The notes below the pieces were generated by a model that worked only from the letters and a program-made list of their open reading frames with translations, was not told the DNA's origin and ran no database searches. Positions 19,431 through 62,015 of a stretch of DNA of 64,000 nt are shown one piece after another. The stretch is taken from contig JAIUPL010000020.1 in assembly GCA_020160935.1 (NCBI GenBank), positions 1 to 64,000 of the forward strand, written 5' to 3'. Origin of the DNA: Bacteroidota bacterium. GTDB lineage: Bacteria; Bacteroidota; Bacteroidia; Chitinophagales; Saprospiraceae. Every line of letters begins with the position of its first letter. Within the stretch, counting starts at the first letter, position 1. Made by a program: the position numbers and the translations under genes.

Positions 19431-19591
19431 GTAGAGTGATTTCCCGCAGATGGCGCAGATTTACCCGCAGAACTCGCAGAACGTAGAGTACGCCTATTTT
19501 TTCAAAGCGATCAAAATGTGTACTCTAAGTGTACTCTACGTTCTGCGAGTTCTGCGGGAAAATCTGCGAGTTCTGCGGGAAACTACTCTAC
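19431..19591. repeat. Long inverted repeat with 61-nt arms
   Basis: Arms 19431-19491 and 19531-19591 pair with a few mismatches. Each arm carries two copies of a TTCTGCGGG/ACTCGCAGA-type word, bounded by GTAGAGT motifs. The 39-nt loop holds a further TGTACTCTA copy. This is the main content of the 521-nt gap between the divergent sqr and OmpA-like genes; no gene is seen in the gap. Confidence 0.9.
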
Positions 19592-19704
19592 GGTAATACC
19601 ACACTGCTTTTCATAGCCGCCATATGTTAATCTGTTTCTTCTCTACATTTTTAACAATCCACGCACGTTTGTTCCTATCTTCTTTTAAGTACAAACACGG
19701 TGTA

Positions 19705-20820
19705 ATGATGAATGATGTATTGCTTTCCCGCCTCCTGGCAGGAGTGGGCCTGTTATTGAGCGCCTGTGGGTTTTCTTCTGCTCAAAATCTGGTCGCCAAC
19801 GCACAGTTCGAAGACCCCAATACATGTGTGGAGTTCAATGCCACTTGTGCGCCGGAAGCCTGGCGGGAGGTCAATTACGGCCGTACATTTTATATAAACA
19901 GGGAAAAAGGAGGAAAAGCCGGTTTTATGCTTTCCAACAACCCGAATATGCGCACATTTCTGTTTACCGAATTGTTATGTCCCCTGGAGCCGGGCCAATC
20001 TTACAAGGTTACGTTTGACTTAAACCTGCGTGGCGCTCCGTTTTTCCCATTCGGCTTTTGGCTTTCCAAAGAAAACCTCTCGGAGCATTTTCGGCCAGAT
20101 ACTGTGGCGGCTACGGTCGATTTTTCAGAAGGCGCTTCTCTGAAAAAACTCAAAAAAATGGTCTGGGTGCCTTTTTCCGGCCGGTTTGAAGCCAGGGGCG
20201 GAGAGCAGTTTTTGTACATCGGAATGATGGGGCCCGCTACACCGGACAAATACGACTGGACCTCGGTTTTCTACATCGATAATATCACCCTGGAGCCTGT
20301 GCGGGGAAATGGCGACCTCTGTGCCACCGCCCCTGAAAAATTAAAAGCGTTATACGCCTACGACAGAAGGCACGTCGGCGAACCCCAGGAGGAAATCGAA
20401 CAAAAGCAGGACTCCATCCCGGTTGCTGCGGAGGTGGAAGAAGAGGAAGAAGAAGCACCTGCTGTCCTTGCAGCGCCACAGCCCGACACCTTGCTGCTAT
20501 CGGGCGTATGTTTTGATTTCAATAAAAGTACGCTGAATGCGCATTACGCGGCTGTGACCGATAGCCTGGCAGACAAAATCATGGCGCGCCATCCGCAAAA
20601 AATCCTCATCAACGGCCATACGGACAACATCGGAACCGATGAATTCAACCGGACCCTGTCACTCGCCCGGGCACATACGGCCGCCGGCATCCTGGTGACA
20701 AAAGGTTTCCCGGCCGATAACATTGTGTGTGATGGCAAAGGGGAAAGCCTGCCCGTGGCCACCAATGACACCGAATCCGGCAGGGCAGCCAACCGGCGTA
20801 TCGAGTTCATTCTCTGGTGA
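19705..20820 (+). CDS. OmpA-family peptidoglycan-binding outer-membrane protein
   Basis: About 371 residues from ATG 19705 (MMNDVLLSRL); an upstream in-frame ATG at 19624 adds a second hydrophobic stretch and looks false. The N-terminus has either a lipobox (LLSAC) or a signal peptidase I site (SSAQ), so it may be a lipoprotein. Residues about 30-205 form a beta-rich, carbohydrate-binding-like domain (NLVANAQFEDPN, PLEPGQSYKVTFDLN, FYIDNITLEP). An acidic linker (EEEEEE) leads to a C-terminal OmpA domain: GVCFDFNKSTLN, INGHTDNIGTDEFNRTLSLARA, AANRRIEFIL. Its role is anchoring the outer membrane to peptidoglycan. It is monocistronic, convergent with the OsmC gene. Confidence 0.85.
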   Translation: MMNDVLLSRLLAGVGLLLSACGFSSAQNLVANAQFEDPNTCVEFNATCAPEAWREVNYGRTFYINREKGGKAGFMLSNNPNMRTFLFTELLCPLEPGQSYKVTFDLNLRGAPFFPFGFWLSKENLSEHFRPDTVAATVDFSEGASLKKLKKMVWVPFSGRFEARGGEQFLYIGMMGPATPDKYDWTSVFYIDNITLEPVRGNGDLCATAPEKLKALYAYDRRHVGEPQEEIEQKQDSIPVAAEVEEEEEEAPAVLAAPQPDTLLLSGVCFDFNKSTLNAHYAAVTDSLADKIMARHPQKILINGHTDNIGTDEFNRTLSLARAHTAAGILVTKGFPADNIVCDGKGESLPVATNDTESGRAANRRIEFILW

Positions 20821-20832
20821 TTGCACAACAAT

Positions 20833-21234
20833 TTACCAGTCAAACTCCACTACTTCCTCCAGCCCTTCCGAAATGCTGAAATGCACCGGGCAGGTACGCG
20901 CAGCATGCTCCAGCACCTTGCGCTGCCCATCGGTGTAATTGTTCCTGGGCATGGAAAACCGGATTTCAATGCGCGCAATACGCCGCGGGTCGGAAGCCAT
21001 AATTTTGGTCACTTCGGCTTTGGCGCCATCGATGTTCCAGCCGTGGTTGCGCGCACTGATGCCCATAATGGTCAGCATACACGACGCCAGCGAAGTGGCG
21101 CAAAGATCGGTCGGAGAAAATGCTTCGCCACGCCCCTGGTTGTCAGGCGGCGCATCCGTGATAATTTTCTGGCCTGAAAGCAAGTGGGTGGCTTCGGTGC
21201 GAAGTTCTCCCAGGTATTCGACGATAGAGGTCAT
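20833..21234 (-). CDS. OsmC-family protein
   Basis: 133 residues from ATG 21234 (MTSIVEYLGEL). The longer frame to 21402 is encoded by the adjacent tandem repeat (Leu/Ser/Thr-rich) and was rejected. Two conserved cysteines, in CATSLASCMLTIMG and HAARTCPVHFSIS, match the peroxidatic and resolving positions of OsmC/Ohr proteins. The likely role is thiol-dependent reduction of organic hydroperoxides, though the YhfA-like subgroup is functionally unclear. The 3' end is 12 nt from the stop of the convergent OmpA-like gene. Confidence 0.85.
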   Translation of the reverse strand: MTSIVEYLGELRTEATHLLSGQKIITDAPPDNQGRGEAFSPTDLCATSLASCMLTIMGISARNHGWNIDGAKAEVTKIMASDPRRIARIEIRFSMPRNNYTDGQRKVLEHAARTCPVHFSISEGLEEVVEFDW

Positions 21235-21240
21235 TTTAGA

Positions 21241-21455
21241 GGGTGAGAGGTGTGAGAGGTGTGAGAGCGTGAGAGGTGTGAGAGGGTGAGAGGGTGAGAG
21301 GGTGAGAGATGTGAGAGATGTGAGAGTTCGTAGAGTGTACCGCTTTACTACAGTGTTTGTACAAGTAAAGCGGTACACTCTACGAACTCTCACATCTCTC
21401 ACCCTCTCACGCTCTCACTCTCTCACCCTCTCACGCTCTCACGCTCTCACCCTCT
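21241..21455. repeat. Inverted repeat of GTGAGAGG-type tandem words around a GTACACTCTACG core
   Basis: The left side (21241-21328) is a tandem run of 7-9 nt words of the GTGAGAG type, with a core CGTAGAGTGTACCGCTTTACT (ending about 21349). The right side (21364-21455) is the inverted core followed by inverted words. The core arms are exact; the word runs differ by small insertions. The loop is about 14 nt. The array runs from the OsmC start codon region to the PhoH stop codon. Confidence 0.9.
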
Positions 21456-25019: not shown

Positions 25020-25160
25020 GGCGCGAAAAGTAGCGAGTTTTTGGGTTGCGTGGGCATGAAATTATGCCGTTCGATGGTAGTGCGATGTGGCGGGATTGGC
25101 CAACGGATGAAACGGATTTTTTCGGATTTCAACTGATTTTTAAAAAAGCATCCTAGAAGA

Positions 25161-25304
25161 AGGTACACTCTACGCTTTGTGTCCTTTGTGAAACCTTAGT
25201 GCCCTTTGTGGTTAAAAAAAATACACGCTACGCCTTTGTGTTAAATTTTTTTAACCACAAAGGGCACTAAGGTTTCACAAAGGGCACTATGCGTAGAGTG
25301 TACC
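25161..25304. repeat. Long inverted repeat with about 60-nt arms and GGTACACTCTACG ends
   Basis: Arms 25161-25220 and 25246-25304 pair with a short mismatched block near the outer end. The outer ends are GGTACACTCTACG, the motif also found in hairpins at 19431, 21241, 42837 and 59276. The inner arm contains repeated CCCTTTGTG/CACAAAGGG words. It fills most of the 339-nt space between the TonB receptor start and the acyltransferase stop; no gene is seen there. Confidence 0.9.
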
Positions 25305-25358
25305 TGCTTTTTTCGATGTTATTTTGAAAAAATCCGTTGCCCAATCCTGCTCCGTTGC

Positions 25359-26294: not shown

Positions 26295-26300
26295 GGAAAA

Positions 26301-26374
26301 GTGAGAGAGTGAGAGAGTGAGAGAGTGAGAGAGTGAGAGAGTGAGAAGGGTGAGAGAGTGAGAATGTGAGAGAG
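26301..26374. repeat. Tandem 8-nt repeat array (GTGAGAGA)
   Basis: About eight to nine copies of an 8-nt unit with minor changes fill the space between the acyltransferase start codon and the stop codon of the barrel gene. No inverted partner is present, unlike the related array at 21241-21455. Confidence 0.9.
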
Positions 26375-27992: not shown

Positions 27993-28874
27993 ATGATGCA
28001 GGACCCGGTTTTTTACGGGTTGGTATGGGCCATTTTCACCGTGATAGGCGTGATTGTGGGCTGGACGCTGCGTGCCACGTACCCCGAACAGGAAGTGCGC
28101 AATTCGCTCTCCCGCGTCGAACAGGAAAAGAATACGCTCGCCCGCCTGTACACCAGCATCAAACACCAGCACGACCTGCGCGAAGCCGATTTCCGTAAAG
28201 CATCGATGGAGTTAGGTACGCTTCGCGACCAATTGGTTGCCCTGGAGGCCGATCGCTCCCGCCGCGTTCAACTCGAACAATCCTACGCGCCGCGCCTCGA
28301 AAAAGCCGAGGCCAATGCCGCGCAATACGCCCAGAAAGTGGCAGCGCTCGAAGTGCTGGCTGGCAGCCTGCGCACCCGCAACGATGAAATGAGTGCCGAA
28401 CTGAAGCGCATGCAGCAGGAACTCGACGCCTGGCAGGTGCTGTACCACGACTTTCAGGCCATGCAACGCAAACTGGCGGCTTTCGAACAAAATGCTTCCT
28501 GGCTCGAAGGCGAACGCGAACAACTGCGCCGCCAATTAGAAACCGCCCGCATCGAAATCGAAAACCTGCAAATGCAACTGCTCCAGCGCCGCGCCGATGC
28601 GCCCGTTTCGGGTTCCAATAAATCGGCTGCCCAGGGCGACCGGCTTGGCGGCCCTGCTGCGCCGGAAAGTACCGACGACCTGAAAATTATCAACGGCATC
28701 AACCCCTTTGCCGAACAACAACTCATCGCGCTGGGTATCCACACCTTCGCCCAGATCAGCCGCTGGGACGACAGCGCCATTCTGGCCTTCGCCAAAGCGC
28801 TCAATATCAGTCCGGGAAAAATTTACAAGGACGACTGGGTAGGACAGGCAAGGCATTTGGTGGGAAGCCGGTAA
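27993..28874 (+). CDS. Membrane-anchored coiled-coil protein with C-terminal helix-hairpin-helix domain
   Basis: 293 residues from ATG 27993 (MMQDPVFYG); an upstream GTG at 27942 overlaps the promoter element and was not used. A single transmembrane helix (about 6-26, LVWAIFTVIGVIVGWTL) is followed by a long coiled coil (about 30-195) rich in Glu, Gln and Arg. A Ser/Gly/Pro linker leads to a helix-hairpin-helix-like module (about 225-290): DDLKIINGINPFAEQQLIALGIHTFAQISRW. Such modules are common at the C-termini of Bacteroidota envelope coiled-coil proteins. The role is unknown; a structural or division-linked job is possible. The 3' end of the gene is partly duplicated downstream. Confidence 0.75.
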   Translation: MMQDPVFYGLVWAIFTVIGVIVGWTLRATYPEQEVRNSLSRVEQEKNTLARLYTSIKHQHDLREADFRKASMELGTLRDQLVALEADRSRRVQLEQSYAPRLEKAEANAAQYAQKVAALEVLAGSLRTRNDEMSAELKRMQQELDAWQVLYHDFQAMQRKLAAFEQNASWLEGEREQLRRQLETARIEIENLQMQLLQRRADAPVSGSNKSAAQGDRLGGPAAPESTDDLKIINGINPFAEQQLIALGIHTFAQISRWDDSAILAFAKALNISPGKIYKDDWVGQARHLVGSR

Positions 28875-29320
28875 GGGGATTTCCGATTGCCGATTACATG
28901 ATGTACGATGTAAGATTGGAAGGATGAACGTGGAATTAAAGATTTTCGAGTCACCCCGCTCACCCCTCTCTATCCAAACCCCATTGGCACAAATGCTGTC
29001 CTTCTCTTACCCCGAGCAGCGCTGGCGCGGCATTTGGTGGGAAGCCGGCGAGGGGGATTTCCGATTTTCAATTACATGATGTACGATGTACGATTGGATT
29101 TGAGATTTTTGATTGAGGGCATTTCGTACTATCTTAAATCTACTATCCAATCGTATATCGTACATCATGTAATCTGAAATCATGTAATTTAAGATGTAAG
29201 ATTACATGATGTAAGATGTAAGATTGGAAGGATGAACGTGGAATTAAAGATTTTCGAGTCACCCCGCCCACCCCTCTCTATCCAAACCCAATCGTATATC
29301 GTACATCATGTAATCGAAAA
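28852..29320. repeat. Mosaic of direct and inverted repeats, including a copy of the upstream gene's 3' end
   Basis: Segment 28852-28912, which includes the last codons of the coiled-coil gene, recurs at 29029-29090. Segment 28911-28983 recurs at 29219-29290 with one visible change. Between and around them are GATGTACGAT-type heptamers, in both orientations (28892-28912, 29072-29096, 29150-29174, 29290-29315). This fills the 431-nt gap between the coiled-coil gene and the small membrane protein; no gene is seen in it. Confidence 0.9.
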
Positions 29321-29857
29321 TCGGAAATCAACATAACGCAGCCTCCCCACCCCGCCCCAAACAATCAGCATCGCCGACAGCCCCAGCGTTCCCCATTTCA
29401 GGAGTTTAAATACCTCGCAGCACAGCGCTGCCGTCATGGATTGTTGCGGAAAGGTGTACAGCAGCCACACAATGCTGGTATTTTCTGCATAATCGAACAG
29501 CAGCACTACAAATGGCAGCACATTCAGCCACGCGGCAGCGGTTTTGCGGTATAAAAAGGTAAGCAGTATGCCCAGCAGAAACGCATACACCAGCGGATAC
29601 GCCACATCGGCTGTCATTTCGGTGCGGGCATACAAGGCGCGGGCGGCATCGCCGTAGTCGGCCACCATTTGCAGGGTGCGCGCCGGATGAAATCCAAACG
29701 TCAGGTCGATGATGCCGACCGTTTTTCCAGCAAGGTGGTTAATGGCGTTTTCAGCGTTTTTCAGGATAACGCCACAAAAAAAGAGGTAGGAAGCCCAAAA
29801 AAAGGCAAAGGTTTTCCAGTTGGCTATGCGGTCGAGAAAGCGAGAAAGGCTGTTCAT
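29306..29857 (-). CDS. Small integral membrane protein
   Basis: 183 residues from ATG 29857 (MNSLSRFLDRIANWK). A longer frame to 29968 overlaps hsdR and lacks signal features. Four transmembrane helices are predicted by eye (about 13-33, 85-105, 108-130, 150-170). I do not recognise the family beyond generic Bacteroidota membrane proteins. The last residues (YVDFRFSIT) are encoded inside the repeat mosaic, so the C-terminus may have been altered by repeat insertion. It follows hsdR on the same strand but has higher GC, so it probably belongs to the surrounding chromosome and not to the restriction cassette. Confidence 0.65.
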   Translation of the reverse strand: MNSLSRFLDRIANWKTFAFFWASYLFFCGVILKNAENAINHLAGKTVGIIDLTFGFHPARTLQMVADYGDAARALYARTEMTADVAYPLVYAFLLGILLTFLYRKTAAAWLNVLPFVVLLFDYAENTSIVWLLYTFPQQSMTAALCCEVFKLLKWGTLGLSAMLIVWGGVGRLRYVDFRFSIT

Positions 29858-38806: not shown

Positions 38807-38814
38807 GGGTGGGT

Positions 38815-38978
38815 GGATTGAATGAAGATTGACGATTACATGATGTACGATGTACGATTGGATTTTAGAATGAGGATTTATGATTGATCGAGATGTCCTC
38901 CGTTCATAATCTTCAATCGTCATTCTAAAATCCAATCGTACATCGTACATCATGTAATCGTCAATCGTCATTCAATCC
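38815..38978. repeat. Inverted repeat with 59-nt arms, one mismatch
   Basis: Arms 38815-38873 and 38920-38978 pair with a single visible mismatch around a 46-nt loop. The arm contains GATTACATGATGTACGATG and adjacent heptamers, the same words found at 28892-29315, so the two loci belong to one repeat family. The right arm covers the stop codon of the dehydrogenase gene (38972-38974). Confidence 0.95.
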
Positions 38979-39943
38979 ACCACCACCACCACATTCCCTT
39001 TCTTATGCCCGCCATCAACATATTGGTGTGCATCGGCAATCTGATCCAGGGAAAAAGAGCGATCAATGGCGGCCGAAAGTTGGCCTTTTTTTGCCAGTTG
39101 AGCAAGCGCGCGGATATTTTCGGGCAATTCTGTGGCGACGCCGAACACCACTTTTTGTCCGGCCCGACGCCCTGTCCAGGCGCCTTGCAGCATTTCCGTC
39201 ATCATAGCCGCGCCGAGCAGCAGCGTGCCGCCTTTTTTCAGCGCTGCCGAACAGGCCGATACGGAGGCTTTGTTGACGGTTTCGTACACCACGTCGTACT
39301 GGCCCACATTTTTGGAAAAATCGCTGCGGGTGTAGTCGATCACGTGGGTGGCGCCCAATGCACGCACCATATCCACATTGGCGGTGCTGCACACGCCCGT
39401 CACTTCTGCGCCCAGGGCGCGGGCAATTTGCACCGCTGCGGAGCCGACAGCGCCGGAAGCGCCATAAATCAGCACCTTTTGTCCGGGCTGGATGTTGGCT
39501 TTTTGCAGGTAGTGCCAGGCCGTGTTGCCGCCAAACGGAAGTGCCGCCGCTTCGGTGTGGCTCAGGCGGGAGGGTTTTAGCGCGATGGGAGCATTGTCGG
39601 GCAGGCACACATATTCGGCATACGCGCCGAAATGCAGGTTGGTGGCGCCGAACACCTCGTCGCCGGGGCGAAATGCCTGCACATCCGAGCCGACGGCTTC
39701 CACCGTGCCCGAGAGTACACCGCCGAGAATGGGTTTGGAGGGTTTGAACAAGCCGAAAATAAAACGCACGGCAAACGGGTCGGCCCTGCGCAGTCGGCAG
39801 TCGCCCGAATTGACGGCCGTCGCATGTATTTTGATCAGGATTTCGTTGTTTTTGGGAACGGGCTTGGCCCATTGTTTCACCTGGAGGACTTCGGGAGCGC
39901 CGTATTGTGTGTAAACGGCCGCTTTCATAGAGGAGGAGGTCAT
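38972..39943 (-). CDS. MDR-superfamily NAD(P)H-dependent alcohol dehydrogenase/quinone oxidoreductase
   Basis: 323 residues from ATG 39943 (MTSSSMKAAVYTQYG); ATG 39928 is also possible. Medium-chain dehydrogenase/reductase with a GroES-like N-terminal half (HATAVNSGDCRLRRADP, GGVLSGTVEAVGSDVQAFRPGDEVFG) and a Rossmann half (VLIYGASGAVGSAAVQIARALGA). The catalytic zinc ligands of true alcohol dehydrogenases are absent, so it is of the zinc-free quinone-oxidoreductase type. Substrate unknown. It lies 86 nt from the Crp/Fnr gene on the same strand. Confidence 0.85.
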   Translation of the reverse strand: MTSSSMKAAVYTQYGAPEVLQVKQWAKPVPKNNEILIKIHATAVNSGDCRLRRADPFAVRFIFGLFKPSKPILGGVLSGTVEAVGSDVQAFRPGDEVFGATNLHFGAYAEYVCLPDNAPIALKPSRLSHTEAAALPFGGNTAWHYLQKANIQPGQKVLIYGASGAVGSAAVQIARALGAEVTGVCSTANVDMVRALGATHVIDYTRSDFSKNVGQYDVVYETVNKASVSACSAALKKGGTLLLGAAMMTEMLQGAWTGRRAGQKVVFGVATELPENIRALAQLAKKGQLSAAIDRSFSLDQIADAHQYVDGGHKKGNVVVVVD

Positions 39944-41012: not shown

Positions 41013-42671
41013 ATGGCATCGTTTGGTCCAAAACAGACTCTAACTCAAAAACTTCAACAAAAACTTTCCCCCCAGCAGATTCAGTTGATGAAACTGCTGC
41101 AAATCCCTACGGCCACCCTCGAACAACGCATACAGGAAGAACTGGAAATCAATCCCGCTCTGGAAGAAGGCGACGAAACGGCCGACCTCCTCGAAGGCAT
41201 GTCGGAAATGGACCTGGCCGATGCCGATCTCAGTTATTACGAACGCGAGCAAAAAGCCGAATCAGGTGAAGATGATCGCGATGATAACATCGGTTCGGAC
41301 GAGGGCAGCGGACTGGATGCGCTCGATGAAATAGAACGCGACAGCACCGACGAATACGACGATGACACCATCAGCCTCCGTGACGACGATGTGGAACTCG
41401 ACGACTATATCGTCAACTTCATTGAAGACGACCCGGCGACCTACAAAACCCGCGATGAAAGCCGCGGCGGCGATGAGGAAGAAAAAAGCGCGCCCATCGT
41501 TTTTGAAAGCACTTTCCACGAATACCTCGAACAGCAACTCGGCATGCTGAGCCTGCACGACGAACGCGAGCACGCCATTGCCCTGCAAATTATCGGCTCC
41601 ATCGACGACGACGGCTACCTGCGCCGCGAACCCGGCGCCATGGTCGACGACCTGCTGTTCAGCCAGAATATCAGCACCTCAGAGAAGGAAATAGACGAAA
41701 TGCTGCTGAAAATCCAGCAATTCGATCCGCCGGGCATCGGTGCGCGCGACCTGCGCGAGTGCCTGCTCCTTCAACTGCACGCCCGTCTGCGCCAGGAAGA
41801 GGATACACTCACGTACGACGACCGGCAGGCGGTACAATTCGCCATCCGCATCATCGATCAGTACTTCGACGAATTTACCAAGAAACACTACCAAAAACTT
41901 TGTCGCCAACTCAGCATCGATGAAGACGAGTTGAAAATGGCCGTCGATGAAATCCTCAAACTCAACCCCAAACCGGCCAGCGGATTCGCGTCTCGCGGCG
42001 ACCGCAACCTGAACTACGTATTACCCGATTTTCTGGTGAGCAACCGCGATGGCGAACTGGAACTCACCCTCAACGCCCGCAACGCGCCCGATCTGCGCAT
42101 CAACGACCAGTACCGCGATATGCTCAAGGCCTTCCACGACGGCCGTAACGGGCGCCGTGCCACCAAAAAAGAGAAGGAAGCCGTGCTGTTCATCAAACAG
42201 AAGATCGACAGCGCCCGCTGGTTTATCGACGCGATCAAACAACGCCAGCAAACGATGATGCTCACCATGGGCGCCATCATGCGCCACCAGGAGGAGTATT
42301 TCCTCACCGGCGACCAGAAAAAAATCCGCCCGATGATCCTCAAGGACATCGCCGACGTGACCGGGCTCGATATTTCCACGGTATCGCGCGTGGCCAATTC
42401 CAAGTACGTGCAAACGGAGTTTGGCACCAAGCGTCTGAAGGATTTCTTCTCCGAAAGTCTCAGCACCCAGGATGGCGAAGAGGTTTCCACCCTCGAAGTG
42501 AAAAAAATTCTGTCGGACATGATTGCCGAAGAAAACAAACGCCGGCCGCTTTCCGACGAAAAACTCAAGTCCGTACTCCTGAAGAACGGCTACAACATCG
42601 CCCGCCGCACCGTTGCCAAATACCGCGAACAATTGAATATTCCGGTAGCGCGGCTGAGGAAGGGGCTGTGA
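41013..42671 (+). CDS. rpoN: RNA polymerase sigma-54 factor
   Basis: 552 residues. Region I starts at the N-terminus (LTQKLQQKLSPQQIQLMKLLQIPTATLEQRIQEELEINPALEEG). A long acidic region II (about 55-165) is followed by the core-binding domain and the RpoN box at the C-terminus (ARRTVAKYREQLNIPVARLR), which recognises the -24 element. Typical length for Bacteroidota (about 480-500) plus extra acid-rich linker. It needs an AAA+ activator, none of which is in the window. Monocistronic; a large palindrome begins right at its stop codon. Confidence 0.97.
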   Translation: MASFGPKQTLTQKLQQKLSPQQIQLMKLLQIPTATLEQRIQEELEINPALEEGDETADLLEGMSEMDLADADLSYYEREQKAESGEDDRDDNIGSDEGSGLDALDEIERDSTDEYDDDTISLRDDDVELDDYIVNFIEDDPATYKTRDESRGGDEEEKSAPIVFESTFHEYLEQQLGMLSLHDEREHAIALQIIGSIDDDGYLRREPGAMVDDLLFSQNISTSEKEIDEMLLKIQQFDPPGIGARDLRECLLLQLHARLRQEEDTLTYDDRQAVQFAIRIIDQYFDEFTKKHYQKLCRQLSIDEDELKMAVDEILKLNPKPASGFASRGDRNLNYVLPDFLVSNRDGELELTLNARNAPDLRINDQYRDMLKAFHDGRNGRRATKKEKEAVLFIKQKIDSARWFIDAIKQRQQTMMLTMGAIMRHQEEYFLTGDQKKIRPMILKDIADVTGLDISTVSRVANSKYVQTEFGTKRLKDFFSESLSTQDGEEVSTLEVKKILSDMIAEENKRRPLSDEKLKSVLLKNGYNIARRTVAKYREQLNIPVARLRKGL

Positions 42672-43090
42672 GATGGTTGAGATGGTTGAGGGGTTGAGAT
42701 GGTTGAGGAGTTGAGATGGTTGAGAGGTTGAGATGGTTGAGGGGCAGCCACCCGGAAAAATTTTGACCGCCTCCCTTCGTGAGGGGAATGTTCAGAAAAG
42801 TGTGTCAACCTATATTTTTCGTGTTTTTTTTCGCAGCCTGACGACGCCATGCCGCCTTGTCTTCCTGACGGGATCTGTTCACTCTACGGCGCATAACAGC
42901 ATATTTTCCCTCGTAGAGTGAACATATCCCGTCAGGAAGACAAGGCGGCATGGCGTCATCAGGTTGCGAAAAAAATTGTTGAAAGCCTGCATTGACACAC
43001 TTTATTGAACACTCTCTTCGTGAGTGGCTATATCTCAACCCCTCAACCATCTCAACTCCTCAACCATCTCAACCCTCTCAACTCCTCCAC
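42672..43090. repeat. Nested inverted repeat, about 200-nt arms with tandem GGTTGAGAT words outside
   Basis: The inner core pairs 42837-42888 with 42912-42963 (52 nt, two mismatches, 23-nt loop). It is flanked by less perfect pairing (GTGTGTCAA near 42801 with TTGACACAC near 42993), and outside that by tandem GATGGTTGA words (42672-42741) matched by inverted CTCAACCAT words (43033-43085). The core ends carry the TTCACTCTACG/CGTAGAGTGAA motif. It fills the whole 424-nt gap between rpoN and the next gene. Confidence 0.9.
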
Positions 43091-43095
43091 CACCC

Positions 43096-44784
43096 TCATC
43101 CTCCGCCCCTCTTCCGCTTCACTCCCTGGACCGTTTCCCGCACTTCCCGTTGCACATTTTGCCGCACGGGCGCCGGTTTTTCTTCCAGTATTTTTTCTAC
43201 ACGTTCGGCGGCCTGGGTGCTGCCGGCTTTTTCCAGGACAGGCAGGATGCGTTGCACTTCCTCCGTCGAGCGGGCTGATTGCATTTTTTTCACCAGCGCG
43301 CCGTCGATGGCGGGCTGGGTTTTGCGTAGCACTTCGGGTTTTGAGGCGGCGGCAGCGGCCACTTCTTCGAGGCGTTCCTGGCGCGGGAAATCGCGGAGGT
43401 AGGCTTGCACTTTGGCTTCGGTGGGCTGGGTGCGGATAGATGCCACGTAGGCATTTTCCACTTCCGGCATCAGTTCGGCGCGGTTTTGCACAGCAGATTT
43501 TAGTTCGGGCAGGCGTTCGCTTTCAGGGAAATCGCGTACAAACTGGCGAATTTTTCGTTCGTCAGGCTGGTCGCGGATAGCGGCGATGGACGCCGTTTCC
43601 AGCGTTGTAATGCGTTTTTCCACCCGCGCTTCAAATTTTCCCTGTCTGTACAGGCGCTGGTAGTCGCGCAGGTCGGCCAGTTGGCCACTTTCTTCGGCTT
43701 TGTAGAAGTAGGCTTTTTCGAGGTAAGGGCTGCCTTTGGGCGTGTATTCCTCAATATAGGCCGCGTAGGCACTCACGTCATTTTTGATGCTGGCCACCCA
43801 CCAGTCGCGCGTAGCGGGCGGCGTCAGCGCCCAGGTAGCCGAAGGCGCTACCACGATGAATGCCAGAAACAAGGCCAGCGGTTTCAGGCGATTGGGCGGC
43901 GCGGATTCAGCAGGCTCCGGGGCTTTTGGGGGCTCCATAGCCTCCTTGGTTTCATAATTTACCTGAAATCCACCTGCTGCAGTGGACGAACTTTGAAACG
44001 CAAAACTTTGTCCACTAGGCTTGAAATCGGCGTTTTCGGCCGGTGCACGCACTTCCGTCACGATGGTCACGGTTTCCAGCAGCGACACGTCGCGCGGGAT
44101 GGGCTCGGCAAAGCCTTCCACTTTTTCCAGGATCGACACTTTCACCAGCAGTTGATGCACGCCCTCTTTCAAGGGTGTGACGCTGAAATTCCACTCCGTA
44201 AAACCGGCATCGCGCACCAGTTGGGTACGCGCATTGAGGGCAGCAATCTGGAACGTGCCGCCTTCAGCATCAAGCAGTTCGGCGCTCATTACGTCGGAAA
44301 TTTCCACTTGCCCGCGCACCTGTACGTGTTCGTCGAGCACGATATTTTCCAGAATGGCATCTTCATCCACGGCCACCCGAATGGTGCAGCGGGTAGGTTT
44401 TTGCAGCGGCATCACATCGGGCACGCGGTACAGCACGCTGCCGCGTTTTGCGGCTTTTCCCGCAGGTTTGTTGGCGGTTGCTGCTTCAAAATCCGCTTCT
44501 GTGAGCGCACCCAACAGGTCGAAAAAATCGGCCGACACCTGATCTACCAGCCTGCGGTAGTCTTCGGGCGAAATGGTATTGCGAAACCGCTCTTTGTTGG
44601 CTGCATTCAGCCGGGCCATCAAGGCCGATACGATGCGGTATTTCTCCGATCCTTCGGGCAGTTGGCCCAGCAAAGCCTGCAAGGCGCCGGGCAGGTCGGC
44701 ATCGCGGATTTGTGTTTCGAGCGTATGGCGCAGGTCGGCAAGTGGTTGGGAGAGCGGCATGGCGAACGGGTTTGGCTGGGGCAA
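43096..44784 (-). CDS. Membrane protein with effector-associated-domain-like N-terminus
   Basis: 562 residues. Residues about 15-100 resemble an effector-associated domain: ADLPGALQALLGQLPEGSEKYRIVSALMARLNAANKERFRNTISPEDY and a closing helix VSADFFDLLGALTE. A beta-rich domain (about 115-240: RCTIRVAVDEDAILENIVLDEHVQVRGQVEI...HQLLVKVSILEKVEGFAEPI) follows, then a Ser/Pro linker and one transmembrane helix (about 298-318). The last 240 residues are helical, with repeats of the FVRDFPESERLPEL type. The C-terminus is strongly basic (KRKRGGG). The topology would put the N-terminal part in the cytoplasm. Function unknown; the architecture parallels the gene at 2857-3783. A short repeat (GAGTTATGAGTTATGAG, 44801-44817) separates it from uvrA. 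Confidence 0.6.
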   Translation of the reverse strand: MPQPNPFAMPLSQPLADLRHTLETQIRDADLPGALQALLGQLPEGSEKYRIVSALMARLNAANKERFRNTISPEDYRRLVDQVSADFFDLLGALTEADFEAATANKPAGKAAKRGSVLYRVPDVMPLQKPTRCTIRVAVDEDAILENIVLDEHVQVRGQVEISDVMSAELLDAEGGTFQIAALNARTQLVRDAGFTEWNFSVTPLKEGVHQLLVKVSILEKVEGFAEPIPRDVSLLETVTIVTEVRAPAENADFKPSGQSFAFQSSSTAAGGFQVNYETKEAMEPPKAPEPAESAPPNRLKPLALFLAFIVVAPSATWALTPPATRDWWVASIKNDVSAYAAYIEEYTPKGSPYLEKAYFYKAEESGQLADLRDYQRLYRQGKFEARVEKRITTLETASIAAIRDQPDERKIRQFVRDFPESERLPELKSAVQNRAELMPEVENAYVASIRTQPTEAKVQAYLRDFPRQERLEEVAAAAASKPEVLRKTQPAIDGALVKKMQSARSTEEVQRILPVLEKAGSTQAAERVEKILEEKPAPVRQNVQREVRETVQGVKRKRGGG

Positions 44785-48995: not shown

Positions 48996-49379
48996 ATGAA
49001 AAGAACATTTTTCCTCCTGGGCCTTGCCCTTTGCCTGCTGGTAATCACATTCCCGCCAGGCTGCTACTACGACAACGAGCAGGATCTGTATGGAAATCCT
49101 GAACCCTGCGACACTGTTGGCGTCAGTTACAGCACTTTCATCGAGCCTTTATTACAGGATCACTGCTACAAATGCCACAAGGAATCGGAACCCGAGTTTT
49201 CCGGGTATATTCTGGACGGCTACGAGAACACCAAAACCTACGCACTCTCCGGGAAAGTTGCCGATCGTACCAACAATGCCGCCAACCCGATGCCGCCCCT
49301 GAGCGACGGAGGTTTGTTGCCCGATTGCGACCGGCAAAAGATACTGGCCTGGATTCGGGCCGGAGCGCCTCAGAATTAG
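48996..49379 (+). CDS. Small lipoprotein with one haem c motif
   Basis: 127 residues from ATG 48996. Signal peptide with lipobox (ITFPPGC). One CxxCH motif (CYKCH) lies within STFIEPLLQDHCYKCHKESEPEFSGYILDGYE, and the ending KILAWIRAGAPQN matches the second module of the upstream lipoprotein. Likely an outer-membrane-attached electron carrier of the planctomycete-type cytochrome class; the partner is unknown. The gap after it is a tandem GAAGTGAGAGG run (49380-49412). Confidence 0.75.
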   Translation: MKRTFFLLGLALCLLVITFPPGCYYDNEQDLYGNPEPCDTVGVSYSTFIEPLLQDHCYKCHKESEPEFSGYILDGYENTKTYALSGKVADRTNNAANPMPPLSDGGLLPDCDRQKILAWIRAGAPQN

Positions 49380-49463
49380 AAGTGAGAGGTGAGAAGTGAG
49401 AGGTGAGAAGTGAGAGAGAAACTGAATTTTTTACATCATTCAACACCTAAATATTACAACAGA

Positions 49464-50496: not shown

Positions 50497-50502
50497 CTGT
50501 GG

Positions 50503-50701
50503 GGTTGATGAGGTTGATGGGGTTGATAAGGTTGATAGATGTTGATGAGGGTTGATAAGGGTTGATGAGGGTTGATATTCATCTGCTCGGGATAAGGATT
50601 GAATTTTCGTTTATCGAGTGGCTGAATATCAACCCTCATCAACCCTTATCAACCCTCATCAACATCTATCAACCTTATCAACCCCATCAACCTCATCAAC
50701 C
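50503..50701. repeat. Perfect 78-nt inverted repeat of GGTTGATGAGG words
   Basis: Arms 50503-50580 and 50624-50701 are exact reverse complements over 78 nt, with words of 9-10 nt (GGTTGATGAG, GGTTGATAAG). The 43-nt loop starts ATCTGCTCGGG and ends CGAGTGGCT, which is itself partly palindromic. A related structure with a similar loop is at 51637-51758. It separates the YceI gene from the DUF5777 gene. Confidence 0.97.
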
Positions 50702-50718
50702 TCAAAAATACCCACTCA

Positions 50719-51636: not shown

Positions 51637-51758
51637 GTTGATGAGGGTTGATAAGAGTTGATGAGGGTTGATATTCATCGGCTCGATAGGGATCAATTCT
51701 TTCGTATTCCGAGTGGCTGAATATCAACCCTCATCAACCTTTATCAACCCTCATCAAC
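51637..51758. repeat. 40-nt inverted repeat related to the one at 50503
   Basis: Arms 51637-51676 and 51719-51758 pair with two mismatches. The loop (51677-51718) begins ATCGGCTCG and ends CGAGTGGCT and aligns with the loop of 50503-50701, so both are copies of one element on either side of the DUF5777 gene. Confidence 0.95.
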
Positions 51759-56714: not shown

Positions 56715-59276
56715 ATGGTTGGGAATCTTACCCAGAACGGCGCCAAACTGAAGCGCATTTTTATTGAACCTACTTTGCCGGAAGGCCTTGCTCCGCTGGC
56801 CGAACTCTCGCAAAACCTGTGGTGGTCGTGGCAGCACGATGCCATCGAACTGTTCAAAAGCATCGATCCGCAAAAATTCGAAGCACTCAACTACAATCCG
56901 GTAGCGCTGCTCGACGAACTCAGCATAGAAAAAGCCCAGGAACTCCAGGGCAACGCCGAATTCATGGCATCCATGAAGCGCCTGCACAAGGAATTTCGCG
57001 ATTACATCGACAAGGCGCCTGCACTTTCCAGCCCAAAAGTCGGCTATTTCTGTATGGAATACGGCCTTCACCAGAGCATGCGCCTGTATTCGGGCGGCCT
57101 GGGTATTTTGGCTGGCGACTACCTGAAAGAAGTGAGTGACCGCAATTTCAACCTGTTTGCAGTGGGCCTGCTGTATCGCTACGGCTATTTCCAGCAGGGC
57201 ATTTCCATGCATGGCGAGCAAATACACAACGTGGAACCCGCCAAATTTACCCAACTCCCGCTGCAGCCTGTACGCGACGAGCGGGGCGAATGGGTGAAAA
57301 CGCACGTCAACCTCGCCGGCCGTACAGTGTGGGCCAAAGTATGGTTGCTGCCGGTGGGCCGGGTGTCGCTCTACCTGCTCGATACGGACATCGACGACAA
57401 TACCTGGGAAGACCGCTCCATCACACACCAACTCTATGGCGGCGACAACGAGAACCGCCTGCGGCAGGAACTCCTGCTCGGTGTGGGAGGCCTGCGCGTA
57501 CTGAAAACCCTGGGCATTTCGCCCGATATTTACCACCTGAATGAAGGCCACGCGGCTTTCCTGGGTCTTGAGCGCATTCGCAACTACATGAAAGACAAGG
57601 GTTTGTCGTTCCAGGAGGCTCTGGAAGTAGTACGCGCCACCCAATTGTTTACAACCCACACACCGGTACCTGCCGGCCACGATACCTTTTCCGAAAATCT
57701 CCTGCGCGATTATCTGTATGAGTACACCTATGCGCTCGACATTTCCTGGCGCGATCTGGTAGGCCTGGGGCGCATAGACCCCGACAGCAGCACGGAACTG
57801 TTCAATGTGAGCCACCTGGCTATTCGTACTTCCGAGGAAATAAATGGCGTCAGTCGCCTGCACGGGGAAGTGAGCCAGAAAATGTTCGTCGAACTCAATC
57901 CGGACTACAGTTATGCCGAAAGCAATATCGGCTATGTTACCAACAGTGTACACCTTCCCACCTGGGTGGCAGCAGAATGGCTCGATCTGTACAAAAAGGA
58001 ACTGGGCAAAAACATTCTGAACGACCAGACCAACCTCAAACTCTGGGCAAAAATCCAGCAGGTGCCGGCTGCTCAAATCATGCAGGTGCGCAAGACGCTC
58101 AAAAAGCGCCTCTTCTCCTGGGTGCGTCATTCCTTGCAGGAAGACCTTACCCGCCGGGGCGAGAACCCACGCAATACATTTGAAATCATCAATTCCCTGC
58201 GGGAAGATGCGCTGGTAATTGGTTTTGCCCGCCGTTTTGCTACATACAAACGCGCGACCCTGCTGTTTTCCAATGAAAAACGCCTGGCAGAAATCGTCAA
58301 CAATGCCGACCGCCCGGTTATTTTCCTATTCGCCGGTAAAGCGCATCCAGCCGACAAGGCAGGCCAGGAATTTATACGCCTGATTTACAATACCACTAAA
58401 AATCCCGCTTTCCGTGGCAAGGTGTTGTTTCTGGAAAACTACAGCATGGAAATGGCCAAATTGCTCGTGCAAGGCGTCGACATCTGGCTCAATAACCCCA
58501 CGCGTCCGAAAGAAGCCTCGGGTACCAGCGGTATGAAAGCCGTAATGAACGGCGTGATGAATTTCTCCGTGCTCGACGGCTGGTGGTGCGAAGGCTACAA
58601 ACCCGGTGCTGGCTGGGCATTGCCGGAAAAGGAAACCTTCCACGATGCTGCCATGCAAAACGAACTCGACGCGGAAACCATTTACAATACGCTCGAAAAC
58701 GACATCGTGCCCACCTACTACGATCAGGATGCCAACGGTATCTCGGAACGCTGGGTAAGCCATATCAAAAATACCATCGCACAGATTGCCCCCGAATTTG
58801 TCATGGGGCGTATGCTCGACGACTATCAGGAGCGTTTTTATTCCAAACTTTGGGAGCGCAGCAAAAAAATCAAGCAAAGCAACTACAAGGCTGCGCGTGA
58901 ACTCACCGAGTGGAAAAACCGTATCCGCCAGTCGTGGGAAACCATCGAACTCGTAGAACTTGATGCGCCCGATACCTTCAACCGCTCTTTTGCCATGGGC
59001 GAACACTTCAAGGTGTCGGCAACCCTCCAGTTGAACGATCTGAGGGCGGAAGACCTGGGATTGGAAGCCGTGTTCTACAAACGGCACTCTGAAACCGAAC
59101 TGGAATTGATTGCTACCTATCCTTTGTCGCTGGAATCACAAAAAGGTGCGCAGGCTACCTACTCCTGCGATGTAATACCGCCTATGGCCGGCGTGTTTGA
59201 ATATGGATTCCGCTTGTATCCCAAGCATCAACTGCTGGCACACCGGCAGGATTTTGGGCTGGTGAAATGGATATGA
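56715..59276 (+). CDS. glgP: Alpha-glucan (glycogen) phosphorylase family protein
   Basis: 853 residues. The N-terminal DUF3417-type segment (LPEGLAPLAELSQNLWWSWQHDAIELF) is typical of the non-classical alpha-glucan phosphorylases. Further landmarks are YLNEGHAAF-like YHLNEGHAAFLGLERI, FTTHTPVPAGHDTF, and the pyridoxal-phosphate site RPKEASGTSGMKAVMNGVMNFSVLDGWW. It releases glucose-1-phosphate from glycogen or maltodextrin. The C-terminal 90 residues form an added beta domain. Monocistronic, convergent with hemA, with a perfect palindrome between the two stop codons. Confidence 0.95.
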   Translation: MVGNLTQNGAKLKRIFIEPTLPEGLAPLAELSQNLWWSWQHDAIELFKSIDPQKFEALNYNPVALLDELSIEKAQELQGNAEFMASMKRLHKEFRDYIDKAPALSSPKVGYFCMEYGLHQSMRLYSGGLGILAGDYLKEVSDRNFNLFAVGLLYRYGYFQQGISMHGEQIHNVEPAKFTQLPLQPVRDERGEWVKTHVNLAGRTVWAKVWLLPVGRVSLYLLDTDIDDNTWEDRSITHQLYGGDNENRLRQELLLGVGGLRVLKTLGISPDIYHLNEGHAAFLGLERIRNYMKDKGLSFQEALEVVRATQLFTTHTPVPAGHDTFSENLLRDYLYEYTYALDISWRDLVGLGRIDPDSSTELFNVSHLAIRTSEEINGVSRLHGEVSQKMFVELNPDYSYAESNIGYVTNSVHLPTWVAAEWLDLYKKELGKNILNDQTNLKLWAKIQQVPAAQIMQVRKTLKKRLFSWVRHSLQEDLTRRGENPRNTFEIINSLREDALVIGFARRFATYKRATLLFSNEKRLAEIVNNADRPVIFLFAGKAHPADKAGQEFIRLIYNTTKNPAFRGKVLFLENYSMEMAKLLVQGVDIWLNNPTRPKEASGTSGMKAVMNGVMNFSVLDGWWCEGYKPGAGWALPEKETFHDAAMQNELDAETIYNTLENDIVPTYYDQDANGISERWVSHIKNTIAQIAPEFVMGRMLDDYQERFYSKLWERSKKIKQSNYKAARELTEWKNRIRQSWETIELVELDAPDTFNRSFAMGEHFKVSATLQLNDLRAEDLGLEAVFYKRHSETELELIATYPLSLESQKGAQATYSCDVIPPMAGVFEYGFRLYPKHQLLAHRQDFGLVKWI

Positions 59277-59409
59277 GTCCTGAGTCGTAAGTCCTGAGTC
59301 CTGAGTCTGTAGAGTACACCTTATTACCCTTGGTATCCATTTATGGGAATATCAAGGGTAATAAGGTGTACTCTACAGACTCAGGACTCAGGACTTACGA
59401 CTCAGGACT
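59276..59409. repeat. Perfect 57-nt inverted repeat between two convergent genes
   Basis: Arms 59276-59332 and 59353-59409 are exact reverse complements with a 20-nt loop. The outer half is tandem 7-nt words (GAGTCCT, GAGTCGT, AAGTCCT) and the inner half ends in GTAGAGTACACC. The glgP stop (59274-59276) and the hemA stop (59402-59404) both lie at or inside the arms. It may serve as a bidirectional terminator, though no T-run is present. Confidence 0.97.
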
Positions 59410-60640
59410 TCACAGTAAGTCTGCTTTTCACCAACTTCTTCACCTCCTTAATCGGAATAGCCGTACATTTTTTCTCCATGTAGGCCATCATTTCCATCAC
59501 GAGGGCTTGGGCTTGCGGGTCGAGGGCAGCGAATTCCTTGCCATATACCTGGTACAGGGCGCGCTCCTTGACCGCGCGAACTTCTGCAGGAATATGGGCC
59601 ATGGAGCGTTCTACCTGGCGCTCGTGCCATTGTTCGCGGTAAACAAACAGGCGCTCGGTAATCATTGATTCGGCTTTTCTGCGCTCGTTTTCGCGATAGG
59701 CGAGGTGTTCGTTGGCGATTTGCTTCAGGCCTTCAATTTCAATAAATTGTAGCGGGAACGCAGGTAAAATGCGTTTGTCTACATTGTTGGGTACAGACAA
59801 ATCGACCACGGTTTTTACATCTTGTTCGCCCTGAAGGAGATGCTGGTAAATTTCAGGCGTTACCACAGGTTCGGTAGCGCCGGTACATACGACGAGGCAG
59901 TCGAAGCCCTCGGTGTAGTGTGCGAGTGCGTCGAGCGGAAGAGCTCGGCCCTGAAGTGTTTGAGCGAGTTTTTCGGCATTTTCAAAACTCCGGTTGAATA
60001 CCATGACGTTTTGATAACCGTATTTCAGCAAAAATTTTGCGAAGAGGGTATTGGTCTGGCCTGCGCCGATCATCAGGATGCGGCTGTTGCGGTCGGGTAC
60101 AGCCGTCAGCATTTCCTGAAAAGCAAGTGCCACAACGGAAACAGCCTTTTCGCCAATGCCCGTCTGGCTGTAAATTTCCTTGGCTGTTTCGATGGTAAAA
60201 CGCATCAGCAGACGCAAGTGGTCGCCCGTGAGCCCGGCGTCGCGACTGCGTTCGTATTGTTCGCGAAGTTGGCGGATAATTTCACGCTCGCCAATCACCA
60301 GGCTGTCCATGGAAGCCGCCACTTCCAGCCAGTGCCGGATGGCTTCGGTGCCGTGCAGCAGGCGCATTTGCGCACTGATAGTGTCTTGCTCTTCGAAAGA
60401 AAGATTGGGGCGGATCACATTTACCACATCCTGCGCAATGCTGTCGGACACAGGGCCGTGTTTGTAAAACAGAAAAACCACCCGATTGCAGGTTGCCAGG
60501 TACATCATTTCTTCCCACTCAAAGCGGTCTTTCAAATGTTGCAACACTGGAGATGCATGGTCTGATACCACCATTTTACCAATGGTTTCAAGGGGCGCAT
60601 GGCGGTGGGTGAGGGTAAGCAGGTGATAGCCGTCGAGCAT
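59402..60640 (-). CDS. hemA: Glutamyl-tRNA reductase
   Basis: 412 residues. N-terminal catalytic domain with LATCNRVVFLFYKHG (nucleophilic cysteine about C50) and SMDSLVIGEREIIRQLREQYERSRDAG. The NADPH domain shows RILMIGAGQTNTLFAKFLLKYG and VFNRSFENAEKLA, and a C-terminal dimerisation helix ends the protein. First committed step of C5 haem synthesis. Its final codons run into the perfect palindrome, so its C-terminus may have been trimmed or rewritten by the repeat. Confidence 0.95.
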   Translation of the reverse strand: MLDGYHLLTLTHRHAPLETIGKMVVSDHASPVLQHLKDRFEWEEMMYLATCNRVVFLFYKHGPVSDSIAQDVVNVIRPNLSFEEQDTISAQMRLLHGTEAIRHWLEVAASMDSLVIGEREIIRQLREQYERSRDAGLTGDHLRLLMRFTIETAKEIYSQTGIGEKAVSVVALAFQEMLTAVPDRNSRILMIGAGQTNTLFAKFLLKYGYQNVMVFNRSFENAEKLAQTLQGRALPLDALAHYTEGFDCLVVCTGATEPVVTPEIYQHLLQGEQDVKTVVDLSVPNNVDKRILPAFPLQFIEIEGLKQIANEHLAYRENERRKAESMITERLFVYREQWHERQVERSMAHIPAEVRAVKERALYQVYGKEFAALDPQAQALVMEMMAYMEKKCTAIPIKEVKKLVKSRLTVKS

Positions 60641-60687
60641 GGCAGAAGGTAACTAAGATTGGAATGTCCGTGTATTATAGACACCTG

Positions 60688-60695: not shown

Positions 60696-60779
60696 AAAAG
60701 GTCGTCGCCGGGCTCTGTCATGCCTTTGTAAAGGGGCAGGCTCAATGAAAATTTGGAAGTTGTCTAAACAAACCCGGCG

Positions 60780-60787
60780 TACCTTTG
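60780..60787 (+). promoter_or_regulatory. Candidate -7 element, leaderless transcript of the DMT exporter gene
   Basis: TACCTTTG lies directly in front of the start codon at 60792. If used, transcription begins at or beside the ATG. A TTTG at 60752 is 24 nt away, slightly more than the usual 19-21. Confidence 0.5.
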
Positions 60788-60791
60788 CAGC

Positions 60792-61703
60792 ATGAGTGAC
60801 AAACTTCGGGCATATTTGGCTCTCCATTTTTGTGTTTTGATCTGGGGATTTACGGCTATACTGGGCAAACTGATCACCTTGCCTACCCTTCCGCTGGTGT
60901 GGTGGCGGGTGCTGATATGCTGTGGCATCTTGCTGGCGTTTGTGCCGATGGCCCAGATAAAAAACCTGGGAAGGTATCGATTTTGGAGCCTGTTCGGGGT
61001 GGGTTTGCTGGTCGGTATACACTGGTTGTGTTTTTATGGCGCCGTGAAAATTGCCAATGCCTCGGTCGGCGTAGCCTCTATGGCCACCACCTCGTTTTTT
61101 GCCGCTATTGCCGAACCCGTCATTCTGAAACAACGGGTAAAGTGGTACGAACTCCTGTTGGGTATACTCATCTTGCCGGGCATGGCACTGGTAGTAGGCA
61201 CCATCGACTGGACGATGCGCGCCGGACTGGCTGTGGGTATTGTAGGTGCTTTACTGGCAGCCGTTTTTACCGCCTTGAATAAAAAAGTGCTGGAAAATAA
61301 TCCGCCGCCACCGCTGGCCATGAGCCTGGTAGAATTGTCGGGTGCCCTGGGTGTTACGTCCCTGGTGTTGTTGCCCATGCTGTGGTATGCTCCGGATATG
61401 CGCCTGGCGCTGGAAGGCTGGGACTGGCTGTGGATAATGGTGCTTTCGCTGGTGTGCACCCTGCTGCCGTATTACCTTACCTTGCTGGCTATGCGGCACC
61501 TGACGGCTTTCGCCACCAACCTGACCATCAACCTTGAGCCCATTTATGGTGTTTTGCTGGCGGCGGTACTGTTTCGGGAAGATAAAGTGCTGGGGCCTCA
61601 TTTTTACCTTGGCATGGTCATCATCCTGATTGCAGTATTCAGCCACCCGTTTCTGAAAAAAATATTTGAAAAAAAAGCACCGGCTCCTGCTCCGGTTTCC
61701 TGA
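60792..61703 (+). CDS. DMT-superfamily (EamA) transporter
   Basis: 303 residues and ten transmembrane helices in two EamA halves: LHFCVLIWGFTAILGKL...VVWWRVLICCGILLA, KIANASVGVASMATTSFFAAIAEPVILKQ, then YLTLLAMRHLTAFATNLTINLEPIYGVLLAAVLF. Probably exports amino acids or other metabolites; the substrate is unknown. DUF4834 follows 3 nt later. Confidence 0.9.
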   Translation: MSDKLRAYLALHFCVLIWGFTAILGKLITLPTLPLVWWRVLICCGILLAFVPMAQIKNLGRYRFWSLFGVGLLVGIHWLCFYGAVKIANASVGVASMATTSFFAAIAEPVILKQRVKWYELLLGILILPGMALVVGTIDWTMRAGLAVGIVGALLAAVFTALNKKVLENNPPPPLAMSLVELSGALGVTSLVLLPMLWYAPDMRLALEGWDWLWIMVLSLVCTLLPYYLTLLAMRHLTAFATNLTINLEPIYGVLLAAVLFREDKVLGPHFYLGMVIILIAVFSHPFLKKIFEKKAPAPAPVS

Positions 61704-61706
61704 ATT

Positions 61707-61877
61707 ATGCTGCTCAAATGGCTTTTTACCCTGCTGGCTTTGATCTGGCTTTACCAGGCCCTGCGCCCGATGTTTACCATTCAACAGCCCGCACCACCGC
61801 CATCACGACCGCCTGAAAACGATTCCTCTAGCGGAGATATGGGAGGGGAATATATTGATTATGAGGAAATTAAATAG
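61707..61877 (+). CDS. DUF4834-like small membrane protein
   Basis: 56 residues. One N-terminal transmembrane helix (MLLKWLFTLLALIWLYQALRP), a Pro/Gln-rich linker, and the C-terminal motif GGEYIDYEEIK, which is how DUF4834 proteins end. Starts 3 nt after the EamA gene, so co-transcribed. Role unknown. Its stop codon overlaps the first base of a palindrome. Confidence 0.75.
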   Translation: MLLKWLFTLLALIWLYQALRPMFTIQQPAPPPSRPPENDSSSGDMGGEYIDYEEIK

Positions 61878-62015
61878 TTATCAGTTATCCGTTATTGGTT
61901 ATCAGGGTGGTAAGGGAACATTTGTACGAATGTTTGGCACCTCAATAGGGAATGCCTTGAATTCGTACAGATGGTACCTTACCACCCTGATAACCAATAA
62001 CGGATAACTGATAAC
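61877..62015. repeat. Inverted repeat with perfect 39-nt arms of GTTATCA words
   Basis: Arms 61877-61915 and 61977-62015 are exact reverse complements built of 7-nt words (GTTATCA, GTTATCC, GTTATTG). The 61-nt loop has a second stem (TGTACGAAT at 61923 with ATTCGTACA at 61961). It lies between the DUF4834-like gene and the pseudouridine synthase. Confidence 0.95.

Follow-up and report, generated by a model that had tools for sequence, protein, structure and literature searches.

Being small, intergenic and present in many copies, the ERIC (RU-1) and YPAL (RU-2) elements of enterobacteria are the closest described counterparts of the long palindromes that we report here from a 64,000-nucleotide stretch of a Bacteroidota genome (PMC2229807, PMC2267715). 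Such elements measure about 100-200 bp, form long stem-loops and have no known mover; YPAL, whose sites may be filled or empty, is cotranscribed with the genes that precede it. The window, by which we mean this whole stretch (bases 1-64000 of contig 40 of a draft genome of 5.84 Mb in 51 contigs), holds palindromes between its genes whose arms mostly consist of short tandem words. Their likeness to ERIC and YPAL extends to size, copy number and intergenic position, to a single long stem-loop and to filled and empty sites, 24 of 61 orthologous spacers being occupied in only one of two species. What differs is that a single genome here contains many families built on the same plan, with word-repeat arms that are 94-100% identical. 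Word-armed palindromes are best filed as a variant of an already known kind of miniature palindromic repeat. It is probable, in our judgement, that they comprise many families of non-autonomous elements, tolerated at gene ends, whose arms are re-matched by copying from one arm to the other.

Several other systems resemble these palindromes in part. The GTAG-tagged REPs that accompany RAYT proteins (PMC3733652) are likewise dispersed palindromes, and some apices here begin with GTAG; however, those REPs are 20-40 bp long and bear a GTAG or CGTC tag at one end, whereas the word families here span 85-200 bp, carry tags, where present, on both arms and are unlinked to the RAYT genes examined. Intergenic tandem TAACTGA heptamers occur in some Bacteroidetes and in cyanobacteria (PMC4679880), and the GTTATCA-type words here are their complement. 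Those heptamers are direct repeats mostly before start codons, with one inverted case, whereas here the words form palindrome arms after stops; by eye, the arms at position 61877 are mixed GTTATC and GTTATT words with one exact unit per arm rather than tandem exact units. The likeness to cyanobacterial heptamers that a preliminary description of this DNA had drawn holds only for GTTATC-type words. In Geobacter metallireducens, paired heptamer or octamer sites also consist of tandem 7-8-nt words, with pairs on opposite strands, but their spacing is variable and they are read as regulator binding sites (PMC2700814), unlike the palindromic elements here. In the uptake-sequence terminators of Neisseria and Pasteurellaceae, a dispersed word likewise recurs as inverted pairs where genes end, but these are short words with T-tails (PMC1852404), and the palindromes here have no T-tract. 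Template switching, or quasipalindrome correction, is published as a maker and keeper of hairpins and predicts mirrored changes in hairpin arms such as are seen here, although it is a mutational mechanism and not an element family (PMC8794818). The part consulted of a bacteria-wide survey of inverted repeats gives no pointer to such families (PMC10434271), and searches of open-licence PMC papers brought up no description of word-armed palindromic families in Bacteroidota.

Dispersed families in two species

A scan of 1.264 of the 5.84 Mb (22% of the genome) found 228 palindromes (arms of 40 nt or longer in 172), against none in the control; extrapolation from this 22% gives an estimated 1000 or so per genome, the density being roughly one element per 5.5 kb. 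Markov controls were single replicates. Control scans found no palindrome in 50 kb of E. coli and one, with 72% arms, in 168 kb from 13 other contigs. Grouping by single linkage, which may merge words (the E group includes a GTTGAGG member), yielded 19 groups of at least two members and 24 singletons. The largest are B (43 members; AGTCCTG words, apex GTAGAGTACACC), A (25; GTTGATGAGG), E (21; GTTATTGG) and C (19; GTGAGAG), followed by F (13; GAGTTATG), D (11; CACAAAGG) and H (9; CCCGCAGA); three small groups resemble ordinary REPs. Each family typically combines an arm of its own, usually made of 7-10-nt words, with an apex that is conserved and a length that varies rather little. Elements mostly measure about 85-200 bp, with family medians of 96-183 bp, and 28 of 45 B-type spans are 132-136 bp (median 134). 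A BLAST search with the palindrome at 50490-50715 gave 94 matches across this genome, a count that includes partial matches and both strands. An exact pattern for the GTAGAGTGTAC inverted pair matched nowhere, being too strict because apices vary. B elements end sharply: over 43 pairs, between-arm identity falls from 0.77 to 0.33 at 30-40 nt outside the core start and is at background beyond, alike for same-locus and different-locus comparisons.

The nearest relative compared, G006, is a different species of the same genus and equally rich, with 256 palindromes in 1.106 Mb (control 0). Five other congeners, thinly sampled, are poor, with 2 palindromes in 71 kb of G007, 2 in 100 kb of G009, 1 in 60 kb of G008, 4 in 40 kb of G005 and none in 40 kb of G011. 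Between the two rich species, where family labels were assigned by eye, related apices bear different word dialects: beside GTAGAGTACACC, AGTCCTG becomes AGTGCGA or AGTCCGA, and elsewhere CACAAAGG becomes CACATAGG and TGTTTTAG becomes TGTTTGG. An exact B-core pair was present in 1 of 395 genomes sampled from the phylum, namely this one (G006 lay outside that set). The family A query (E <= 1e-15), for which no more than two candidates were scored in any genome, matched 5 of 396 genomes of the order; three of these belong to the same genus and two to the same family.

Sixty-one spacers could be compared between the two species. Both species have a palindrome in 10 of them and neither has one in 27; the others are filled in G006 alone (20) or here alone (4, of which one is masked by Ns in G006). 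One filled/empty spacer measures 39 bp here and 171 bp in G006, whose palindrome is 132 bp; at others the lengths agree less closely, and some of the spacers that are empty here contain a solitary word array. Nine of the ten doubly filled spacers carry different-looking families, one with a weak 22-nt arm. Gene segments that align over more than 350 bp share 66-85% identity between the species, so that palindrome turnover is nearly complete on that time scale. Conserved 'slots' for palindromes were not shown, co-occupancy being non-significant (odds ratio 3.4, p 0.07).

Palindromes of the window

With a threshold of at least 24 nt per arm, the window yielded 12 palindromes, of which 10 had arms of 40 nt or more, and one first-order Markov sequence of equal length yielded none. 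Long inverted repeats were present at all ten places that the preliminary description had named, and at two more (29146 and 37954). Tandem Repeats Finder reported short tandem words at most window palindromes, and Rfam gave them no match at gathering scores. The palindromes are as follows:

17897..17984, family K; arms 42 nt, 100% identical; loop 4 nt; conservation between loci confined to the outer 22 nt, the inner 20 nt varying
19430..19592, family H; CCCGCAGA-type words and CGTAGAGT motifs; arms 62 nt, 90%
21238..21455, family C; GTGAGAG words, apex CGTAGAGTGTACCGCTTTACT; word arrays unequal in length between the sides
25157..25309, family D; CACAAAGG words, CTCTACG at the outer ends; arms 64 nt, 94%
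29146..29228, family J; GATTACATGATGTACGATG; arms 30 nt, 90%; inside a locally duplicated stretch
38812..38981, family J; arms 74 nt, 95%; an ADH-like gene, 38972-40000 (-), ends within it
42669..43103, nested palindrome filling a convergent spacer; outer GGTTGAGAT word arrays at 42669 and 43032
50503..50701, family A; GTTGATGAGG words; arms 79 nt, 100%
51637..51758, family A; arms 41 nt, 95%
59276..59409, family B, 134 bp; AGTCCTG words, apex GTAGAGTACACC; arms 61 nt, 98%
61877..62015, family E; GTTATC/GTTATTGG words, apex GGTGGTAAGGGNNCAT; arms 55 nt, 95%

That the words differ from place to place, as had been remarked earlier, is true within the window, because it samples only one or two members per family (two of A, at 50503 and 51637, and two J-type, at 29146 and 38812). 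They are not locus-specific, since the same words and apices recur genome-wide as dispersed families. That the palindromes are discrete elements scattered through the genome and placed where genes end had escaped the preliminary description.

Within the family C palindrome, 21278-21426 has a 40-nt arm (95%) and a perfect inner stem of 39 nt. The inner stem of the nested palindrome (42825-42975; 64 nt, 95%; apex CACTCTACG) is unrelated to its outer words, the first of which overlaps the stop of a sigma-54 gene (42669-42671); the inner stems at 17897 and 42825 contain no tandem word. A glutamyl-tRNA reductase gene, 59402-60640 (-), ends inside an arm of the 59276 palindrome. At that place G006 carries a GTGAGTAG-word palindrome, and its spacer orthologous to 50503 holds a GTTATTCG-word palindrome instead; no palindrome was found in the G006 interval orthologous to 51637. 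The elements at 59276-59409 and 61877-62015 each fold end to end as one stem-loop (z -24 and -19), and the predicted folding of two whole elements gave -121 and -97 kcal/mol, a third tested sequence being a partial element.

Some word arrays have no partner arm. Tandem Repeats Finder located these at 26300-26374 (GTGAGAG-type), 38154-38241 (CTCAACC-type), 49378-49416 (AGAAGTG-type) and 62673-62705 (GAGATGTGAGAAGC-type), and they are possibly degraded elements or palindrome seeds. Around the palindrome at 29146, the window contains a local duplication (28868-29338) of a stretch with GATTACATGATGTACGATG units and the flank GGCATTTGGTGGGAAGCCGG.

Matching of the arms

Copying between arms, which the preliminary description had proposed from their near-identity, is well supported. 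Among the 43 paired loci of family B, 189 deviations from the consensus are common to both arms of the same locus, whereas random re-pairing of arms gives a mean of 65 and a maximum of 92 (300 trials); 198 positions are unequal between the arms. Two mirrored B variants, picked from the B loci for a genome search, each occur exactly twice in the whole genome, once per arm of a single locus. With one-arm patterns, identity was higher within than between loci in all eight sets having both values. The same-locus and different-locus identities were 0.826 and 0.619 for B here, where the pattern also took in family C, and 0.778 and 0.738 for B in G006; 0.860 and 0.832 for A here and 0.917 and 0.712 in G006; 0.798 and 0.661 for C; 0.967 and 0.630 for E here and 0.798 and 0.592 in G006; and 0.949 and 0.878 for G. 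The D pattern gave no comparison because it paired one locus only, and C and G gave none in G006 because they had no hits there. Private variants divide into mirrored and one-arm changes as 8 to 12 (B here), 7 to 25 (B in G006), 7 to 6 (A in G006), 14 to 17 (C), 11 to 8 (E) and 3 to 10 (G).

Family K shows this matching most clearly. Its three elements, 87-88 bp long, share 18-20 of the outer 22 nt and only 6-9 of the inner 20, while their own arms match at 100, 100 and 95%; two more matches to the K outer motif, one per species, occur without a palindrome. Close to the loop, the arms of different loci are more alike than same-locus arms in families A and B (for A in G006, 0.54-0.56 versus 0.32-0.37), as if the loops were conserved but asymmetric and the elements sat in both orientations.

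The arms may be re-matched in place, at each move or in both ways; the two genome-unique mirrored variants and one orthologous pair lean towards copying in place. The element at 61877 is the only one that has a same-family counterpart in G006, at the same place after a conserved gene end and with a similar loop. Its arms are 95% alike here and 91% in G006, and the words differ between the species on both arms. This favours copying in place, albeit as a single case, with about one chance coincidence of family possible among the ten doubly filled spacers. Arm identity hardly varies with gene orientation (0.947, 0.939 and 0.946 in convergent, tandem and divergent spacers here; 0.950, 0.934 and 0.946 in G006), an observation that speaks against RNA-stem selection as the principal cause.

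Gene ends, candidate movers and rival explanations

Gene positions were taken from a greedy longest-open-reading-frame caller (at least 100 aa) rather than from annotation. Called spacers contain 205 of the 228 palindromes here and called genes the other 23 (38 of 256 in G006). By spacer type there are 86 palindromes in 202 convergent, 90 in 509 tandem and 29 in 200 divergent spacers here, and 74 in 158, 119 in 484 and 25 in 150, respectively, in G006. The median distance from a palindrome edge is 10 nt to a gene stop and 80 nt to a start (11.5 and 95 in G006). Palindromes of tandem spacers lie nearer the upstream stop in 75 of 103 cases here and 92 of 128 in G006, and 81 gene ends here fall inside arms. 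A called protein encoded at C26:44542-45468 (-) in this genome has a C-terminus, ...RGERSESVRGGREVRGEK, that is seemingly coded by GTGAGAG-type words.

Insertion tolerance and a role at gene ends predict this position alike. Selection for such a role, in which symmetrical cassettes would stop translation and also shape the 3' ends of the one or two transcripts that converge on them, strikes us as rather unlikely. Any family could then stand in for another, since all that counts would be a strong hairpin with stop codons, and indeed different-looking families occupy nine of the ten spacers filled in both species, convergent spacers hold the most palindromes, two whole elements fold strongly, and stop codons reading inward exceed those of shuffles (2.96 versus 2.30 per 36 nt here, 3.28 versus 2.42 in G006). 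However, inward stops outnumber outward ones in 11 of 17 families here, 5 showing the opposite (E among them) and 1 a tie. The lack of significant co-occupancy, the indifference of arm identity to gene orientation and the fact that other congeners live with few palindromes speak against it as well. No T-tract follows the stems in either species (0.049 versus 0.047 at random places here; 0.029 versus 0.051 in G006), and a canonical intrinsic terminator is unsupported.

A linked transposase or reverse transcriptase had been suggested as worth seeking. RVT_1 has 4 matches here, 2 in G007 and 5 in G009, and none in G006, which is 95% complete and rich in palindromes; a reverse transcriptase is thereby not supported as the generator, and linkage to one is not needed. 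No linked transposase was found either, at the Y1 loci examined or among the genes checked between widely spaced inverted repeats. Eight such repeats, sought as an autonomous relative, enclose a called gene; four of the enclosed proteins were checked, of which three, flanked by E-like arms in G006, are of ordinary kinds (PKD/Por tail, DUF892, hydrolase) and one, a 238-aa protein here between unrelated arms, has no Pfam match. One might still suppose that the elements are REP-like single-stranded hairpins moved by a RAYT (Y1) protein, the needs of the moving hairpin, rather than in-place copying, keeping their arms matched. Y1 proteins are encoded in both rich genomes (2 here, 3 in G006), the shape is that of a hairpin, and several apices begin with GTAG, the tag of one REP class (PMC3733652). 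We nevertheless hold this to be distinctly unlikely: the poor congeners have as many Y1 genes or more (G005 6, G007 2, G008 4, G009 2), at the three Y1 loci examined, out of five in the two rich genomes, the palindromes nearby are of other kinds, REPs are far shorter, and the genome-unique mirrored variants would need sources that were lost or left a single offspring. A RAYT as linked mover is thus unsupported by gene counts and neighbourhoods. At C29:1898-3045 (L115) of this genome, a Y1 transposase gene (C29:2332-2577) has a GTTGGCGAGGACGCCAAC palindrome on either side; this looks like an ordinary REP/RAYT unit and stands apart from the word families.

That each palindrome arose where it stands, from a local word array that grew and was folded back by template switching with no movement of elements, is very improbable. 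Partnerless arrays do exist, also in spacers where G006 has a palindrome, but apices, lengths and ends conserved within families cannot arise separately at tens of places; as the only process, independent origin is refuted for A, B, C and E, and could hold for singletons. An assembly artefact is scarcely credible. The genome is a draft and loci were read from assemblies alone, yet the palindromes are seen in two separate assemblies with different dialects, one orthologous element is common to both species, the unequal positions in B arms persist, and the control DNA is nearly free of them.

The elements are dispersed and sharp-ended, occupy sites filled in one species and empty in the other, and carry mirrored variants private to single loci. 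Under the reading that we prefer, some 20 families of small non-coding elements, nearly full-length hairpins, would have been copied to many places by an activity acting in trans. They would lie at gene ends mostly because insertions harm least there, and replication would switch template within the hairpin (quasipalindrome correction, reportedly treated by van Noort 2003) and so re-match the arms, selection on RNA stems not being their main keeper. Several results weigh against this reading. No mover emerged from the RVT_1, Y1 and gene-enclosing repeat checks, and flanks are too diverged between the two species for target duplication to be read. Mirrored flanks beyond the element show no general excess, except for extra words in A, and mirrored extension into host flanks is limited to single cases, such as C43:384605. 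Copying in place rests on a single orthologous pair. Family A here has no private mirrored variant and 7 one-arm variants, and its members look like recent copies whose arms have since drifted apart. At all 25 A loci an arm elsewhere equals or beats the partner arm, and at 30 of 43 B loci an arm elsewhere is at least as similar, in a comparison where detection favours matched arms, biasing identities upward, and the nearest other arm is the best of many. Such matches elsewhere show that copying was recent.

A bolder reading, unlikely on balance, is that the families are no separate mobile elements and that one shared generator active in these species makes them all, copying matched hairpins from gene end to gene end with one arm templating the other at each renewal and letting words drift together into species dialects around an unchanged apex motif; what is copied would then be the hairpin as such. 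In any case, the elements are a good natural test of DNA hairpin copying and maintenance. About a thousand dispersed hairpins by estimate, many with near-perfect arms, make testable how bacteria keep long palindromes matched and how orphan miniature elements (ERIC, YPAL) move, and closely related strains would allow one-arm and mirrored mutations to be counted per locus. The word dialects bear on why similar short tandem words occur in distant phyla.

Two further observations concern other sequences. In the window, 29949-32966 (-) encodes a 1005-aa protein that is 78-91% identical to 13 loci on contigs labelled Flavobacteriaceae, Methylococcales and others; it is unusually conserved across phyla and was probably transferred. 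In G006, a palindrome at C22:1832-2040 with 93-nt arms containing TCATCCTGAGCGCAGCGAAGGATCT resembles a repeat of many bacterial genomes.

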